This document shows, piece by piece, positions 6,415 to 35,019 of a stretch of 35,019 bases of DNA. The number at the start of each line of letters is the position of its first letter. The stretch's first letter is position 1. Under the pieces are notes generated by a model, which ran no database searches, was not told the origin of the DNA, and worked only from the letters and a program-made list of their open reading frames with translations. The translations under genes and the position numbers were made by a program. Origin of the DNA: an uncultured Armatimonadota bacterium (lineage in GTDB: Bacteria; Armatimonadota; Armatimonadia; Armatimonadales; Armatimonadaceae); contig CAIVZM010000036.1 of the NCBI GenBank assembly GCA_903910385.1, positions 1 to 35,019 on the forward strand. The letters are read 5' to 3'.

Positions 6415-7917
6415 GTGGAAAACTATTCGAAGTTACTTGACCGTCTCAAAGAAATTACGCATCTGGGACGCGCCGGAGCGGTTCTGGGCTGGGATCAGCA
6501 GTGTTATATGCCGCCCGGCGGAGCGGAAGAACGGTCGGAAGAGTTCGCCGTCATCGGCAAATTCACCCACGAACTATTCACCGCTTCGGAAACGCAAAAA
6601 CTCCTTGAAGGAGCCGAAGCGGAAGTTACGAATCTCTCGCCGGACTCGGACGAGCGCCTGACTCTGCGCATGGTGCGCCGCGATTTCGATCAGGCGGTCA
6701 AAATCCCTTCGGCGCTGGTCTCGGAACTGGCGCGAGAGGAAGGGTTGGCGCATGAAATCTGGGTTAAGGCGCGGCAGGACAGCGACTGGAAACAGTTCGC
6801 GCCCAAACTGGAAAAACTCCTCGACCTTTCCCGCCAGAAAGCGGAATATCTCGGCTATACTGACCGCATCTATGATGCCCTGTTAGACCAGTACGAGCCG
6901 GGCAGGACCTCAGCGGAAGTGGAGACGGTCTTCAACAATCTGCGTCCGGGTCTGGTCAAACTGGTCCATGATATCGCCGCGGCGCCACCGATCAGCGATG
7001 CCTGTTTGCGCCGCGATTTCGATGAGGATGCGCAGAAGGCGTTCAGCGAATATGTCATCGGCAGATTGGGCTATGACTTTACGCGAGGACGACAGGATAA
7101 AGCAGTACACCCGTTCTGCACCTCTTTCGGGCGTAACGATGTCCGTATTACCACGCGTTACGAGAAGAACTGGCTTCCGTCATCCCTGATGGGTTCGATT
7201 CACGAAACCGGCCATGCGCTTTACGAACAGGGTTTCGCTCCTGGCGACGACGGTTCGCCGCTTTCCAATTCCGCCTCACTCGGAATCCACGAATCGCAAT
7301 CGCGCCTGTGGGAGAATATCGTCGGGCGGTCCCGCTCTTTCTGGAATATCTTCTACCCGGAACTGCAACAGCGCTTCCCCGGCGTCCTCGACAATATCAG
7401 CCTGAACGACTTCTATCGCGCCATCAACCGGGTCGAACCCTCGTTTATCCGTGTCGAAGCCGATGAGGTGACCTACAACCTCCATATTATGCTACGCTTT
7501 GAACTGGAGCAAGCGATGATGGACGGTTCCCTGAAAGTCGCGGATGTGCCGGAGGCATGGAACGAGAAAATGCGTTCCTACCTCGGCATTGTCCCGGAAA
7601 ACGATGCGCAGGGTTGCCTGCAGGATGTTCACTGGAGCGCCGCTCTGTTCGGCTATTTCCCGACCTATTCTCTGGGCACCATTCTTTCCGCGCAACTCTA
7701 TGAAAAGGCGATCAAGGACAATCCCGCCATTACGACCGATCTGGAAAACGGCGCGTTTGAGTCCCTTCTCGAATGGCTTCGCACCCATGTTCACCGACCG
7801 GGTCGTCGCTATCTTCCCGCCGAACTGATCGAGCGAATCTGCGGCGAACCCGCGCAATCACACTCGTACCTGAACTATCTGAACAGCAAGTTCGGCGCTC
7901 TTTACGGTCTGTCCTGA
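6415..7917 (+). CDS. M32-family carboxypeptidase (carboxypeptidase Taq)
   Basis: Zinc metallocarboxypeptidase that removes C-terminal residues from peptides in the cytoplasm. The family N-terminus (YSKLLDRLKEITHLGRAGAVLGWDQQCYMPPGGAEERSEE) is complete. From GTG 6415 (500 aa, the usual size) the zinc site is H263-E-T-G-H267 in MGSIHETGHALYEQG and the third ligand E293 in LGIHESQSRLWEN, 26 residues after the second His as in Thermus CP. Other family blocks seen: HPFCTSFGRNDVRITTRY and the C-terminal SYLNYLNSKFGALYG. An in-frame ATG at 6325 would add 30 residues unlike the family; GTG 6415 has AGAAAGG about 10 bases upstream, so I prefer it. A TATGAT at 6324-6329 overlaps the alternative ATG and may be the -10 box. 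Confidence 0.9.
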   Translation: MENYSKLLDRLKEITHLGRAGAVLGWDQQCYMPPGGAEERSEEFAVIGKFTHELFTASETQKLLEGAEAEVTNLSPDSDERLTLRMVRRDFDQAVKIPSALVSELAREEGLAHEIWVKARQDSDWKQFAPKLEKLLDLSRQKAEYLGYTDRIYDALLDQYEPGRTSAEVETVFNNLRPGLVKLVHDIAAAPPISDACLRRDFDEDAQKAFSEYVIGRLGYDFTRGRQDKAVHPFCTSFGRNDVRITTRYEKNWLPSSLMGSIHETGHALYEQGFAPGDDGSPLSNSASLGIHESQSRLWENIVGRSRSFWNIFYPELQQRFPGVLDNISLNDFYRAINRVEPSFIRVEADEVTYNLHIMLRFELEQAMMDGSLKVADVPEAWNEKMRSYLGIVPENDAQGCLQDVHWSAALFGYFPTYSLGTILSAQLYEKAIKDNPAITTDLENGAFESLLEWLRTHVHRPGRRYLPAELIERICGEPAQSHSYLNYLNSKFGALYGLS

Positions 7918-30119: not shown

Positions 30120-31277
30120 TTGAAAAAAACGGGCGATTTGAATAATCGACTGAAGACAGTACGGACCCGACTCAGAATCAGTCAGCAGGAATTAGCGACA
30201 GCGGCGGGAATCGCACGCCAGACGATAGGCGGAATAGAATCGGGAGTGTATGCCCTCTCACTCACCACTGCCTTACGTATTGCCGGGGCTCTGGGTTGTA
30301 CCGTGGAAGAACTTTTCTGGCTCGAAGGAAATCGCCAGATCGTTGAGGCGGAGTTATCAGGCGAACTCAATACGATGGATATCGGGAAGTTTCCAGAGAC
30401 CGGGCAATCAGTCAGGGTCGCTCTGGGACAGATTGGTAATCGCTGGATCGCTTCGCCTTTGCTCGGAAATCAGGCGTTCCGTACAGAAATGATCCCGGCG
30501 GATGGGATCGGGACTTGGGATGCTACAACGAACACGTTCCTCGTCGAACTTCTGGATACGCCGGAAGCGTTGATGGGCATGGCGCTGATAGCGGGTTGCG
30601 CTCCCGCGCTCTCGCTCTGGGCGCGGTCTGCGGAAAGATGGCATCCCGGTCTACGAGTCCACTGGCTCCATGCCAATAGTATGACAGCGCTGACCTATCT
30701 GGCGAGAGGTGAAGTCCATATAGCCGGCATTCATCTTATTGATCCGCTAACCGGTGAAGAAAACTCCCCTTTCGTCCGAGAAACGATGAACGGAATTCCC
30801 TGCACCCTGATCAATTTAGGCATCTGGGAAGAGGGGTTGGCAGTAGCGCCCGGTAACCCTAAAGAACTGATTAGCATTCAGGATTTGACCCGAACGGGAG
30901 TAACCTTGGTCAATCGCGAGCGTGGATCGGGTTCCCGTCTGTTGCTGGATTCCCTGTTATCGGAGGCGAAAATCAAGCCATCCTCCCTGACAGACTATGA
31001 TTTTACGGTATCAGGGCATCGAGAAGTGGCGCAGGAAATTTATGCCGGACGTGCGGATGCGGGCGTCTGTACAGCGTCCATCGCCGAATCCTATGGTCTC
31101 TCTTTCCTACCTCTGCGACGAGCGCGTTACGATCTGGCGCTACGAACGGACTCGCTGGAACTTACTGCGATCCAGCAACTACTGGGAACCCTGAACCATC
31201 GATGGGTCCTTTCCCAGCTTTCAACACTCGGCGGTTATGACATATCCCGCACCGGCGAAATGGAAACGATTGTCTGA
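30120..31277 (+). CDS. XRE-type regulator with periplasmic-binding-protein-like sensor domain
   Basis: 385 aa. Residues about 8-68 are an XRE HTH (LKTVRTRLRISQQELATAAGIARQTIGGIESGVYALSLTTALRIAGALGCTVEELF). Residues about 90-370 match the PBP-like domain (PF12727 type, related to molybdate-binding ModA): ALIAGCAPALSLWARSAERWHPGLRVHWLHANSMTALTYLARGEVHIAGIHL, GVTLVNRERGSGSRLLLDSLL, AQEIYAGRADAGVCTASIAESYGLSFLPLRRARYDL. Such regulators bind an anion or small ligand and DNA in the cytoplasm; molybdate or tungstate is possible but not shown. Start is TTG 30120 with AAGGAG about 12 bases upstream, so translation may be modest. No transporter gene lies next to it. Confidence 0.85.
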   Translation: MKKTGDLNNRLKTVRTRLRISQQELATAAGIARQTIGGIESGVYALSLTTALRIAGALGCTVEELFWLEGNRQIVEAELSGELNTMDIGKFPETGQSVRVALGQIGNRWIASPLLGNQAFRTEMIPADGIGTWDATTNTFLVELLDTPEALMGMALIAGCAPALSLWARSAERWHPGLRVHWLHANSMTALTYLARGEVHIAGIHLIDPLTGEENSPFVRETMNGIPCTLINLGIWEEGLAVAPGNPKELISIQDLTRTGVTLVNRERGSGSRLLLDSLLSEAKIKPSSLTDYDFTVSGHREVAQEIYAGRADAGVCTASIAESYGLSFLPLRRARYDLALRTDSLELTAIQQLLGTLNHRWVLSQLSTLGGYDISRTGEMETIV

Positions 31278-31566
31278 ACGACATTTCTGTACACGACCTT
31301 ACATGTTCTTGAGAAGATCGTCCAGTATCGAAGGGGCGGTTCTACTTTTCCCAACCTTTAACGTGAACGCCGACAAATCAGGTCTAAAACCTCTAACGAC
31401 TTTATTATCCCGTCTCGCGTCACGCTGGTTTTGGCGCAACAGATACTGTATATTCAAATCCAGCCACATCGCTCTGAGTATGCAGAGGCAATGAACCAGG
31501 CAGTCCCTATTTATGACTGGCGCCTCTTGAACTCATCACATCATTTAGTAGTCGCCATAACCATTA

Positions 31567-32532
31567 ATGGGAACTTTGACTGGTTTTCTGCAACAGGAAT
31601 TTAATCGCTTCCGCCCCGAGGGGTGGAGTTGTCGATATGAGGCGCCTATCTTTTCGAAAGACCTAGAAGATGCTCTGGGCTTTGCAGCTCGTGCGGATAT
31701 TCTGCTTCAAGCAAGTGACGAATCCCGTCGTTATTGGATCGAATTTGAGGTCAGTCGCGCAGATCCTGTCGCTAACCATGCAAAATTCGCGGTTGGTCAT
31801 CTTTATCAACCTCAATCTCAAAAAGACTTTTTTGTTTCAATGGTCAGTTCACATGTATCACGCGGACGCAGGAATCTTGCTGGGAATGCAATACATTTGA
31901 TGCGTTGCGTGGGAATGAATGCATTCCAGACAATTCTTCTTCCTCATAGCTCAGGGAGCGAAATTAAGCGTTGGAATGGAATGTCGGTGATGAAACTCAC
32001 ATCGGAAAATATTCCTATTCAGGATGAAATTGAACGGGTTTTTGCGATTACTGAGCCAGTAACTGCCGTTGGTTCACGTGATATTTATCTTGTAGGTGAT
32101 ATCTCAGACGTGATATTGAACGTTCGACGTTTCAACTTAGATATTTCGACAGAGCAGGGATGTTCAGACTTTGGTCGTCGGACAGTTACCTACTTTGTCT
32201 ATGATCCCTGGATGAAAACGTTTGCCCCCTCGAAGTTTTGCGCTTATTCAGTAATAAATTCAAAAAATAAAGTGAGGGATCATGCTTACCCTACGGATTT
32301 CCACTCAGATATGACGATTTCCTTTTACTCTCAATTAGACGAAAGCAATCCAGCATTTGATGGACGAATAGCACGTCTGCATTTGGAAAAGCGTTTGGCG
32401 ATGCATCTTGTTCCCCTTGCCAATCGACCAGACTTAAAAACGAGTTTTTATGCATGGCATGACGGTCTTATCGGCAGTATAAATGTTCATCCAAGCGGAC
32501 CGCAAATTCTAATACCCCCGGAATGGTTTTGA
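31567..32532 (+). CDS. A+T-richer protein of unknown function, possible PD-(D/E)XK-like nuclease
   Basis: 321 aa, not recognised. Base composition and codon use are visibly more A+T-rich than neighbouring genes, suggesting transfer. Residues 40-66 read ARADILLQASDESRRYWIEFEVSRADP: an acid at the end of one strand (D44) and an E-x-E (E59, E61) at the next, followed by a helix, as in PD-(D/E)XK nuclease cores, although Lys is replaced. Downstream the protein is mixed alpha/beta without other motifs. No signal peptide or membrane helix. ATG 31567 has an in-frame stop just upstream and no Shine-Dalgarno. It is followed by a hairpin and then a degraded integrase-like ORF and a degenerate tRNA, which fits an accessory island. 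The nuclease idea is tentative. Confidence 0.6.
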   Translation: MGTLTGFLQQEFNRFRPEGWSCRYEAPIFSKDLEDALGFAARADILLQASDESRRYWIEFEVSRADPVANHAKFAVGHLYQPQSQKDFFVSMVSSHVSRGRRNLAGNAIHLMRCVGMNAFQTILLPHSSGSEIKRWNGMSVMKLTSENIPIQDEIERVFAITEPVTAVGSRDIYLVGDISDVILNVRRFNLDISTEQGCSDFGRRTVTYFVYDPWMKTFAPSKFCAYSVINSKNKVRDHAYPTDFHSDMTISFYSQLDESNPAFDGRIARLHLEKRLAMHLVPLANRPDLKTSFYAWHDGLIGSINVHPSGPQILIPPEWF

Positions 32533-32577
32533 CTCCAACATGATGATCAGGAATAGCAGATACGTGATTTGGAACAT

Positions 32578-32604
32578 ACCAAGATAGAAACCTTTCATCT
32601 TGGT
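32578..32604 (+). terminator. Hairpin after the nuclease-like gene
   Basis: ACCAAGAT (32578-32585) pairs with ATCTTGGT (32597-32604), 11-base loop, 46 bases after the stop codon. No T-run, so termination is inferred from position. Confidence 0.35.
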
Positions 32605-32858
32605 GAGCAGACAAAATGGGAAAGGAGCAACGATTTATATGTTGCAGGAAGGTGGCTTATGCTTGACTCAAACCCCCTTTGCCAGACTCTCCAGTTGAAG
32701 AAGCTCTTGAGTTGAGTAAAGTGGGTGTGGATGGTGGTGGGAGACAGGTTCCGATCCCGTCTCAGGTACAGGTTTTCCCGTAGTGAGGTCTCAATTCGTA
32801 CATAGCCTTCTCCATAAATCTCGATGGGAAGACCGAAACAGGACTGTTTCCCTCTCAT
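32595..32858 (-). pseudogene. Degraded ORF with integrase core-binding-like segment
   Basis: 87-aa frame. The middle (YVRIETSLRENLYLRRDRNLSPTTIHTHFTQLKSFFNW) resembles the SAM-like N-terminal domain of tyrosine recombinases, whose usual pattern is fl.yl...r.LSp.Ti..Y...L..F..W. After that Trp the similarity ends, and the other frames stop quickly, so no catalytic domain remains. It lies immediately downstream of the degenerate tRNA-Glu on the same strand, the usual place of an island integrase. The resemblance is short and unverified; a chance match is possible. Confidence 0.3.
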
Positions 32859-32872
32859 TTTGAGAGGAAGGA

Positions 32873-32946
32873 TAGGCGGTAGGGGGATCGAACCCCTGGT
32901 CTCCTCCGTGAAAGGGAAGATACTGGAATCCCCCTCAAAGTCGCCT
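32873..32946 (-). tRNA. Degenerate tRNA-Glu (UUC): intact 3' half, 5' half altered
   Basis: On the minus strand the 3' half is a good tRNA-Glu: anticodon arm CTTCC-CTTTCAC-GGAGG (anticodon TTC at 32912-32910), variable loop AGACC, T-arm AGGGG-TTCGATC-CCCCT, acceptor ACCGCCT and discriminator A. The 5' part has the right total length (74 nt) and begins AGGCGAC, but two acceptor pairs fail and no D-arm with its GG and TA..GC features can be drawn. It is either a pseudo-tRNA or the 3'-half attachment-site copy left by an integrated element. Confidence 0.45.
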
Positions 32947-33088
32947 ACTTCCCTCTCGAAACTGGTTTTTTCGCGCTTCCGTTTTTGACAAAGGAGGAGT
33001 CCTTTTTCCGGGTGTAAAATCTGGTAGTCCTCCCTCCATCGATAACATTATAGCGCAGATCCCCTCTTCTATCCGCATAAAATAAAAG

Positions 33089-33118
33089 TTGATTTTCTTT
33101 CCATTATCACCGTATACT
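33089..33118 (+). promoter_or_regulatory. Sigma70-type promoter of the RES-Xre module
   Basis: TTGATT (33089-33094) and TATACT (33113-33118) with an 18-base spacer. Transcription would start near 33125, leaving a short leader with the purine-rich AGAGAGAAAAAA before ATG 33144. Xre-type antitoxins normally autoregulate from such a site; no clear operator repeat was found. Confidence 0.5.
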
Positions 33119-33143
33119 GAGAGTGGTAAAGAGAGAAAAAACC

Positions 33144-33905
33144 ATGAACATTCTTCTTGTCGTCGGCGGCGACGACGAATTGACTCGCCGATTGGAAGCC
33201 CCTACCCGGCAACGTGCAAGGTTTCGCATCACACAACGCGATTGGAGTGTGGTAAGAAGTCGGCCCGCCGCCTTGCCCGAGGCTGATGTCATGCTGGCGG
33301 ACTTGACGACGGACGACGCCTACACCGTACGTGGGCTGGTTAAACTGCGACGCGCTCGCCCGGGTCTTGCCCTCCTGATTCGTACTGACGCCGTTCTCTC
33401 CCGTGAAACCGCTATGACGCGCCTTCTGGAAAGCCCTAAAGTGGATTTTATTCGCTCCTTCGCTGACGCCGACGAACTCGAACAGCGCCTCCGCCGTCTC
33501 ATGAACCATCAACCAGAGAAGCCCTCTCCTAAACGGTTCGTAGGGGCGGCTGGACGCCACCTCCTACCTGAATTACACGACCCAAAAAGTGGTCGTCTTA
33601 ATGCTCGGAGCATCGCTATGTTCTTTGGCGTTCCCCTGGCGGATATCGCTCGGGCTGTCGGAAAAAGTCTTTCCGCTATCCATAAAACACCCGACGCTGT
33701 GTCACTCCAAGACGGATTGTTTCCCTTTGAGCGTATCGCCACCGCGTTGCTGACGCTCGCCGGGTCAGCAGAGAACGCCCGCGTGTATCTGAATTTACCG
33801 GAAGCGCAGTTGGGTAACAAAACACCGCTTTCTCTGCTACGCGACGGGAGAGGCGTTATCGTCGCTCAAATGCTGGACGATATGCTTACGGGTCAGCCCT
33901 CGTGA
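33144..33905 (+). CDS. Xre/MbcA/ParS-type antitoxin with N-terminal receiver-like domain
   Basis: 253 aa, much longer than usual antitoxins of this class (about 120-160). Residues 1-120 look like a response-regulator receiver fold: MNILLVVGGDDE (acid pair D10/D11), DVMLADLTTDD with a candidate phospho-Asp D53, LALLIRTDAV, and DFIRSFADADELEQRLRRL where the conserved Lys-Pro is absent. Residues about 150-185 are the Xre-like HTH (NARSIAMFFGVPLADIARAVGKSLSAIHKTP). Residues 192-250 are the DUF2384/MbcA-ParS toxin-binding domain (PFERIATALLTLAG, ARVYLNLPEAQLGNKTPLSLLRDGRG). ATG 33144 is preferred over GTG 33123. Its stop overlaps the toxin start. It should neutralise the RES toxin and repress the operon; the receiver-like part may add a signal input, which is inference. 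Confidence 0.82.
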   Translation: MNILLVVGGDDELTRRLEAPTRQRARFRITQRDWSVVRSRPAALPEADVMLADLTTDDAYTVRGLVKLRRARPGLALLIRTDAVLSRETAMTRLLESPKVDFIRSFADADELEQRLRRLMNHQPEKPSPKRFVGAAGRHLLPELHDPKSGRLNARSIAMFFGVPLADIARAVGKSLSAIHKTPDAVSLQDGLFPFERIATALLTLAGSAENARVYLNLPEAQLGNKTPLSLLRDGRGVIVAQMLDDMLTGQPS

Positions 33906-34516
33906 TAGGCGACGCCACACGACTTGGCGAGGTACTTGCATCATTGCCGGTGTTGCCGTTCGACGGCATTCTGTACCGCGCCGTGACACACCGGGCTTTG
34001 ATTGGAGACCCACCGTACCCGGAGATTCGCCCCCTCTACGACGCCGGAGCGCCGAGTTCTGGAGCGCGATACACACCTAGAGGCGGCATGAAATCCCTTT
34101 ACCTCGCCGCCGACCCGGAGACCGCATTTGCTGAGGTTAACCAGATTTACGCGAAGCTGCGACGGCAGTCTCCACCCGTCATGGCCCCGGTTCCGGCGTG
34201 CACCCTCTTTAGCGTCGCCGCCCGTATAGAGCGCGTTTTAGACTTGACTGACATTGCAATACAATCCGCCTTAGAGACGAACGAGGCGGAGTTATCGGCG
34301 CCGTGGCGCGAATCGCAGCAGAGCGGAACCCTTCCGCCGACCCAATGGTTGGGCAGAGCTGCCTACGACACTACGGTTATTCAGGCGCTACGTTACCCAT
34401 CGATGCAACTGCCCGGCCATGCCTGTTTCGTCGTTTTTACCGAGCGCCTACAAGGAAATACTTTCATCGAAGTGGACGACGCCAGCGGCTACCTTCGAGA
34501 AAGGCTACCTCAATAA
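33902..34516 (+). CDS. RES-domain toxin
   Basis: 204 aa. RES domain with the arginine in FDGILYRAVTHR (R26), the SSGARYTPRGGMKSLYLAADPETAFAEV block (Arg and E78, equivalent to family G-G-R-W...LY-A....A-E) and a downstream serine in the IEVDDASGYLRERL tail. Known RES toxins (MbcT, ParT, Res) consume NAD+ or ADP-ribosylate proteins in the cytoplasm and arrest growth; the NAD-site residues appear present, so activity is plausible. The GTG start overlaps the antitoxin stop (GTGA), making antitoxin-first coupling. The module is next to a degenerate tRNA and a transferred-looking gene. Confidence 0.88.
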   Translation: MIGDATRLGEVLASLPVLPFDGILYRAVTHRALIGDPPYPEIRPLYDAGAPSSGARYTPRGGMKSLYLAADPETAFAEVNQIYAKLRRQSPPVMAPVPACTLFSVAARIERVLDLTDIAIQSALETNEAELSAPWRESQQSGTLPPTQWLGRAAYDTTVIQALRYPSMQLPGHACFVVFTERLQGNTFIEVDDASGYLRERLPQ

Positions 34517-34747
34517 CCGTGACGGGAAGCCAAAAGCGCGACGCAAAGTGATACGATATAAGTTACGTGTAGCGAGGGGCGACGGTGTTTCGGACGTAGA
34601 GCCTGTAGCGAGAGAGTTTATTGGTGCTTTCGCATCTCGGTAGTCCGCCCCCCGGTAATACAGCGCGATGATGGCTGTAAGCACGGCGGCGGAAAAAATA
34701 AACCAGCGCGTTACTGTATTCACAGAGCGAATTCTTTCGTGAGACAT
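34505..34747 (-). CDS. Possible small single-pass membrane protein
   Basis: 80 aa from ATG 34747. Residues about 14-33 (TRWFIFSAAVLTAIIALYY) would make one membrane helix with a basic N-terminus, and the rest is polar and basic. It converges with the RES toxin and overlaps its last 12 bases. There is no ribosome site before the ATG and no recognised family, so it may be a chance frame. Confidence 0.25.
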   Translation of the reverse strand: MSHERIRSVNTVTRWFIFSAAVLTAIIALYYRGADYRDAKAPINSLATGSTSETPSPLATRNLYRITLRRAFGFPSRLLR

Positions 34748-35019
34748 CACGGGTTCTAAGCAACAAAAGGACAGCAGGTGCTGCCAGCGTCATTCCTCAA
34801 TAAGATGAAGAAGAGCGACCTCTGCGATAGTAATGCCTAGCTCTACTCCGGAATTTCGATTCCAATTACTGTCCTATATAACGTGAGTTCGGGATAAGCG
34901 ACAGTGATTTATTTCGCCTCAATATCAACATATATCAACAATGCTGGATTTTTGTGGCTTTGCGGGCGAAGCGACACCGCACCACGAATTTATCACCTGT
35001 CGGGCGAAGAATACCGAGT
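34748..35019. other. End stretch without a recognised complete gene
   Basis: Nothing of known family is seen. A 10-base near-tandem repeat ATATCAACAT/ATATCAACAA lies at 34922-34941. Directly after it a plus-strand frame starting ATG 34941 (MLDFCGFAGEATPHHEF...) stays open for 26 codons to the window edge. It has no ribosome site and could be the beginning of a gene or chance. Confidence 0.3.

Follow-up and report, generated by a model that had tools for sequence, protein, structure and literature searches.

An attachment-site duplicate of tRNA-Glu and a putative integrase relic at the end of a genomic island in an uncultured Armatimonadota bacterium

Introduction

The genomic islands that are detected by Islander (PMC4383910) have an intact tDNA at one end, a 3' fragment of this tDNA displaced to the opposite end without change of orientation, a tyrosine integrase gene between the two and a length of 2-200 kb. 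The tRNA fragments made by such integrations can be listed as tRNA genes, as reported in PMC9897764. For instance, this source describes the PYG1 island of Pyrococcus yayanosii as having 44-bp repeats in tRNA-Gln and a fragment that was mis-listed as a tRNA gene. Furthermore, tandem islands at one site and the att sites that lie between them are already known (PMC10111431).

Here, we analysed a window of 35,019 nucleotides that is a whole contig (C36) of an uncultured Armatimonadota bacterium whose genome amounts to 4.47 Mb in 84 contigs. A previous sequence-only reading of this window had noticed the 3' half of a tRNA-Glu beside an integrase-like frame. We consider it very probable that the tRNA-like feature is the attR of a BREX-bearing element inserted in tRNA-Glu(TTC), most of which would be on another contig (C40), and that the adjacent integrase relic comes from an older visitor of the same site. 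The features of the window are listed in Table 1.

Table 1. Features at the right part of the window, in window coordinates
Feature	Position	Strand	Basis
A+T-rich orphan gene of 321 aa, possible cargo of an older element	31567..32532	+	no family match, one plasmid homologue
87-aa frame holding both putative relic segments, outside the present island	32595..32858	-	ORF list, Pfam
Putative relic integrase, core-binding segment	32661..32762	-	28 residues, 46% identity with the G001 integrase (residues 102-129)
Putative relic integrase, 5' end (start-codon region like the starts of related int genes)	32816..32863	-	score 22.5 with L094
attR core: 45-bp exact duplicate of the 3' part of tRNA-Glu(TTC), anticodon arm to discriminator base	32873..32917	-	source C40:24557-24629(-)
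5' half of the tRNA called by ARAGORN, taken here as island DNA	32918..32947	-	ARAGORN call, Rfam score, right-end likeness to G001, shuffle test
Far end of the tRNA-Glu island; the remainder would be C40:1-24556 if the contigs join directly	32918..35019		contig-end overlap, repeat, right-end likeness to G001
Conserved right end of the element, about 90 to 41 nt away from the core, like that of G001 at matching distance	32959..33007	-	0 of 1000 dinucleotide shuffles
Candidate Xre/MbcA/ParS-type antitoxin, inside the island	33123..33905	+	PF09722, E 6.1e-5, 23.4 bits (cut-off 24.5)
Candidate RES-domain toxin, inside the island	33902..34516	+	PF08808, E 1.3e-17, above cut-off
MITE-like repeat, left part, at the contig break point	34886..35019		204 bp in total and 13-bp inverted ends once C36 is joined to C40

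Results

A 3' copy of tRNA-Glu that is not a tRNA gene

The minus strand of the core displays a TTC anticodon arm, a T-arm with all its pairs and the 3' strand of the acceptor stem of a tRNA-Glu, and no D-arm is visible, which agrees with what had been seen by the sequence-only reading. This reading had also proposed to search the whole genome for an intact tRNA-Glu with exactly the same 3' half. Such a gene is present on C40: the core is identical at 45 of 45 bases to C40:24557-24601 (E 2.6e-16), i.e. nt 29-73 of a normal tRNA-Glu(TTC). Besides the query itself, this is the only match to the core at E<=0.001 in the whole 4.47-Mb genome, which holds no third copy at this threshold.

ARAGORN calls a 78-nt tRNA-Glu at 32870-32947 and both the anticodon and T stems pair, as they would in a divergent yet working tRNA-Glu gene. 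However, the scar obtains only 21.5 bits with the Rfam tRNA model, under the gathering score of 29, whereas the intact gene of C40 reaches 65.5 bits. The scar therefore lacks both the covariance score over the threshold and the D-arm by which a functional tRNA-Glu would be recognised. Moreover, the DNA located upstream resembles DNA of the element found in a relative, G001 (see below). A working tRNA gene at this position is thus extremely improbable. A complete tRNA call had been named in advance as an outcome that would speak against an island boundary; ARAGORN formally provides one, but its covariance score is under the threshold and the DNA just upstream of the core is G001-like. Folding energy does not discriminate between the scar (z -1.87) and the real tRNA (z -1.03). 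The bases that resemble a 5' acceptor strand were rejected as a true inverted copy of the tRNA end, since 241 of 2000 shuffles were equally good. Window positions 32873-32917 are an attachment-site duplicate (attR) and no tRNA.

Intact tRNA-Glu, integrase and extent of the island

The genes follow one another on C40 in the order truB-like, ribF-like, tRNA-Glu and integrase, the names of the first two being presumed from their protein sequences. The intact tRNA-Glu(TTC) (C40:24557-24629, minus strand) provides the complete tDNA at one island end. Just downstream of it, a 355-aa frame (C40:23440-24507) encodes the integrase, with a PF00589 match above cut-off (E 9.6e-36). The tRNA gene and its displaced 3' fragment are both on the minus strand, and a junction of C36 with C40 would place the fragment downstream of the tRNA.

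Since a 3' fragment made by integration sits at the island end far from the intact tRNA, the island is expected above position 32917 on C36. Two observations agree with an island on this high-coordinate side: the likeness of the right end to that of G001 and a match between contig ends, the last 64 bases of C36 being the first 64 of C40 in the orientation required. This overlap is part of a short repeat that is also present at the ends of C38, C55, C61 and C47, and therefore the join is not unique by sequence. It is favoured because C40 is the sole other contig with the core. We infer that C36 probably joins C40 directly. The island would then measure 26,684 bp including both cores (2,147 on C36 and 24,537 on C40). 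The repeat itself is MITE-like and occurs at six contig ends (34886-35019 of the window, positions 1 to about 150 of C40, and the four other contigs), where it is a likely reason for the assembly breaks.

The closest comparison is provided by G001, which belongs to the same family and to another genus. This genome harbors a full tRNA-Glu and, 36.8 kb away on the same strand, a 48-bp stretch identical to its 3' part, both element ends being located on a single 1.5-Mb contig. Between these ends lies an integrase that shares 53% identity with the C40 one; for the primases, identity is 47% over about 255 residues. The tblastx comparison, which gave linked fragments with scattered coordinates, was used for integrase and primase only. 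The 110 nt upstream of the core, on the high-coordinate side, align in register between C36 and G001 with a score of 18. None of 1000 dinucleotide shuffles reaches this score, and it is equalled by one of 1888 window controls, which may overlap the site itself. Direct comparison of the flanks downstream of the core gives no more than chance likeness (171 of 500 shuffles for C36 and C40, 203 of 500 for C36 and G001); a signal in this flank came only from the int start regions described below.

No empty site was found, the 12 family genomes including no second genome of the host genus. No tRNA was called at the ribF loci of the family (10 of 10, with a flank of about 1.5 kb or less). A contig scan with the protein encoded at window position 30120 gave 31 candidate stretches, none of which was confirmed.

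Genes carried by the island

A complete set of the anti-phage defence system BREX-1 (BrxA, BrxB, BrxC, PglX, PglZ of type B and BrxL) is encoded at C40:451-16699. With the NCBIfam models, BrxC and PglZ type B are above cut-off, PglX is below (334 for a cut-off of 500), and BrxL passes the cut-off of one model and falls just under that of another. Additional frames of 488, 289, 164 and 226 aa are located between pglX and pglZ (L011:8673-12317), the 289-aa one with a DUF5655 domain and a weak match to the PADLOC candidate PDC-S18. The backbone comprises a primase/AAA protein (C40:17195-19174, minus strand) and is completed by an HTH protein that adjoins the integrase.

If the contigs join, the island extends from the scar to higher window coordinates and the RES/Xre pair lies inside. 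Both candidates are far under the NCBIfam cut-offs. The long N-terminal part of the antitoxin candidate (33144-33530) looks by eye like the receiver of a response regulator, for which Pfam gives nothing convincing. The previous reading had described this pair and the A+T-richer gene at 31567 as flanking the boundary on either side; in the arrangement proposed here, the pair belongs to the island on the high side and the other gene lies on the outer, low side.

Putative remains of an integrase outside the island

The 87-aa frame starts 15 bp past the core, on its outer (low-coordinate) side and on the same strand. The recombinase core-binding-like segment that had been suspected in this frame is borne out by two comparisons. 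Against a profile of related integrases, the stretch that includes the frame ranks first of 978 six-frame stretches of the window (E 3.6e-4, the next one being at 2.5). This profile was built from 12 sequences, among which two loci are duplicated (L069/L094 and L070/L095), L099 and L101 being omitted since their frames are shorter than 250 aa. Furthermore, blastp relates the core-binding segment to the G001 integrase with an E-value of 2e-5 among 11 sequences compared, i.e. the 11 of 18 integrase loci retained after the frame filter.

The start region of the putative relic resembles that of related int genes. The score obtained with L094 (22.5) is reached by none of 1000 shuffles and none of 1018 window controls, and that obtained with L095 by 4 of 1000 shuffles. 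Other single comparisons are weak (33 of 1000 shuffles for C40, 18 for L105 and 258 for L101), and the sum over the five int starts is equalled by none of the 1018 window controls. The two segments are collinear, but the distance between them is shorter than in a complete integrase, which is what the loss of an internal part would produce. The core-binding segment is not followed by a catalytic domain, and the 3' end of the plus-strand gene 31567-32532 lies 128 bp past this segment. We discarded a further collinear match of the profile (32433-32338, E 2.5), since it runs antisense to this 321-aa gene, for which a full-length homologue exists.

The scar could be the attR of the BREX island and the 87-aa frame an unrelated chromosomal sequence that looks like an integrase by chance. 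Consistent with this, Pfam gives only sub-threshold matches to integrase SAM-like domains (best E 0.013), NCBIfam and PHROGs give none for this frame, and the protein alignment is short (28-34 residues). Such a coincidence would nevertheless have to produce two collinear segments that both match one integrase family, better than all 1018 controls for the one and all other stretches for the other, directly beside the scar, and it is unlikely. The 87-aa frame thus appears to contain integrase-derived sequence and, judging from these alignments, it is best read as a probable relic of an earlier element at the tRNA-Glu site.

The GC content is 44.6% at 31278-32872 and 55.1% before, and none of the 297 windows of 1-31277 is that low. 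No match to the 321-aa gene was found in 11 family relatives; among 72,556 plasmid records, it has one full-length homologue (37.7%), encoded by a Methylibium plasmid. Taken together, the relic segments, the low GC content and the orphan gene look like what an earlier element would have left behind at tRNA-Glu. In a tandem array, each member would bring an integrase and a tDNA fragment of its own, and here the second member consists of the relic integrase alone. No third, decayed copy of the core was found in the window (best non-self score of 13.5, for maxima of 11-14 in five shuffled sequences). Since the second tDNA fragment is missing, we use the term relic rather than tandem array.

The sequence-only reading had viewed the scar and the decayed integrase as two remnants of one old island, which would then extend toward lower coordinates. 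The start of the frame at 15 bp from the core, their common strand and the low-GC DNA on the low-coordinate side are what such an island would leave. However, the junction on the integrase side should then carry the completed tRNA and not a fragment, the G001-like right-end DNA is found on the high-coordinate side, and an intact integrase is found at the intact tRNA. A single old island is therefore very unlikely. An island boundary marked by a duplicated 3' half of a tRNA, next to a decayed integrase, is supported; their common origin is not, since the island of the scar has an intact integrase at its other end and the relic is on the outer side.

Related integrases and other copies of tRNA 3' parts

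Sixty-eight relatives of the integrase were found, the close ones including MAGs of Armatimonadetes, Chthonomonas and Fimbriimonadaceae, and the first 24 were scanned for tRNA genes. At 44% identity or more, a cut-off that was set afterwards, all eight integrases are preceded by a same-strand tRNA, located 93-148 nt ahead of the match (five Val, one Gly, one Pro and one Arg). Among the other 16, an upstream tRNA is on the same strand in three (L100, L107 and L111) and on the opposite strand in five (L110 and L113-L116); eight have none.

Within the sequence stretches examined, a long tRNA 3' copy was found in one of 11 loci tested, L107, from a Chloroflexi MAG. Its tRNA-Met (2555-2629) has a 47-bp exact 3' copy (nt 29-75) at 7369-7415, 4.7 kb downstream, and the locus has a related integrase, so that it looks like a very small element. 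The host genome contains a second island-like case: a related integrase (42%) follows a tRNA-Val(GAC) (C9:45093-45164), whose 3' part (nt 27-72) is present again as an exact 46-bp copy on another contig (C8:9472-9517). In all four places with a long copy, the shared block starts approximately where the anticodon arm does and extends as far as the 3' end of the tRNA.

The motif CTCTCAA was considered as an arm site of the family and dropped as inconsistent: among the flanks compared, it is present in 3 of the 13 on the left, in 1 of the 4 on the right and in 0 of the 3 on the chromosome side, with one further occurrence immediately past the core of the window. Elsewhere in the host genome, four odd or low-scoring tRNA-like matches (47.5, 38.1, 26.9 and 15.2 bits) are grouped within 1 kb (C18:28235-29150).

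Discussion

The following history would explain the locus. The tyrosine integrase of the element would have driven recombination between attP and the 3' portion of the tRNA-Glu(TTC) gene; on the C40 side, the tRNA would have been made whole by the 3' copy borne by the element, and the original 3' portion would have been displaced to the far end of the island, where it would now be window 32873-32917. The load of the element would comprise the integrase, the primase/AAA ATPase and the complete BREX-1 set, as well as the RES/Xre pair if C36 and C40 join. Just past the scar, on the chromosome side, the probable integrase remains are oriented like intact integrases beside their tRNA. It is likely that tRNA-Glu first housed an older element with an integrase of the same family, that this older element decayed, and that the BREX element then entered the same site, thereby placing its attR against the old integrase. 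We infer both this order of insertions and the activity of the integrase from the arrangement of the sequences.

More broadly, the island may belong to an undescribed family of Armatimonadota elements, a proposal to which we give even chances. The related tyrosine integrases of this family would take the segment that begins with the anticodon arm and reaches the 3' end, in whichever tRNA, the elements in tRNA-Glu would share integrase and primase and vary in cargo such as BREX, and reuse of one tRNA would let scars and dead integrases accumulate. The tRNAs behind this proposal are Glu twice, Val, Gly, Pro and Arg in the relatives mentioned above, and Val again in the host genome.

Hence, an odd tRNA call becomes a mapped island end. 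BREX is apparently carried by an element whose integrase is intact. For this phylum, judging by titles and the start of abstracts, we found no report of tRNA-integrated genomic islands or BREX elements in the literature searched; neither did we find a report of a BREX element in a tRNA-Glu genomic island. Moreover, the relic suggests a route for the repeated use of one tRNA gene. It also calls for caution, since a dead integrase beside an att site need not come from the island bounded by that site: the previous reading was right about the tRNA copy and the integrase and wrong about their relation.

The elements themselves look undescribed in the literature searched. As in BREX type 1, brxA, brxB, brxC, pglX, pglZ (type B) and brxL are together on C40; unlike in this type, PglX is under the NCBIfam cut-off (334 vs 500) and frames of 488, 289 (DUF5655), 164 and 226 aa separate pglX from pglZ. 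The island resembles PYG1, as described in PMC9897764, by the near-equal length of the repeats and by the fragment mis-annotated as a tRNA; it differs in that the host of PYG1 is archaeal and its tRNA is a tRNA-Gln, the comparison being one of repeat and annotation. Compared with the islands described for Islander (PMC4383910), the ends of the window island are on different contigs and a relic integrase lies past the fragment. It shares with them the intact tDNA, the displaced fragment, the integrase between the two and, if the contigs are joined, a length within 2-200 kb, and its footprint includes the anticodon arm, as in the anticodon-centred class of Islander. The locus is thus a known signature of a tRNA-integrated island, here in a little-studied bacterial group.
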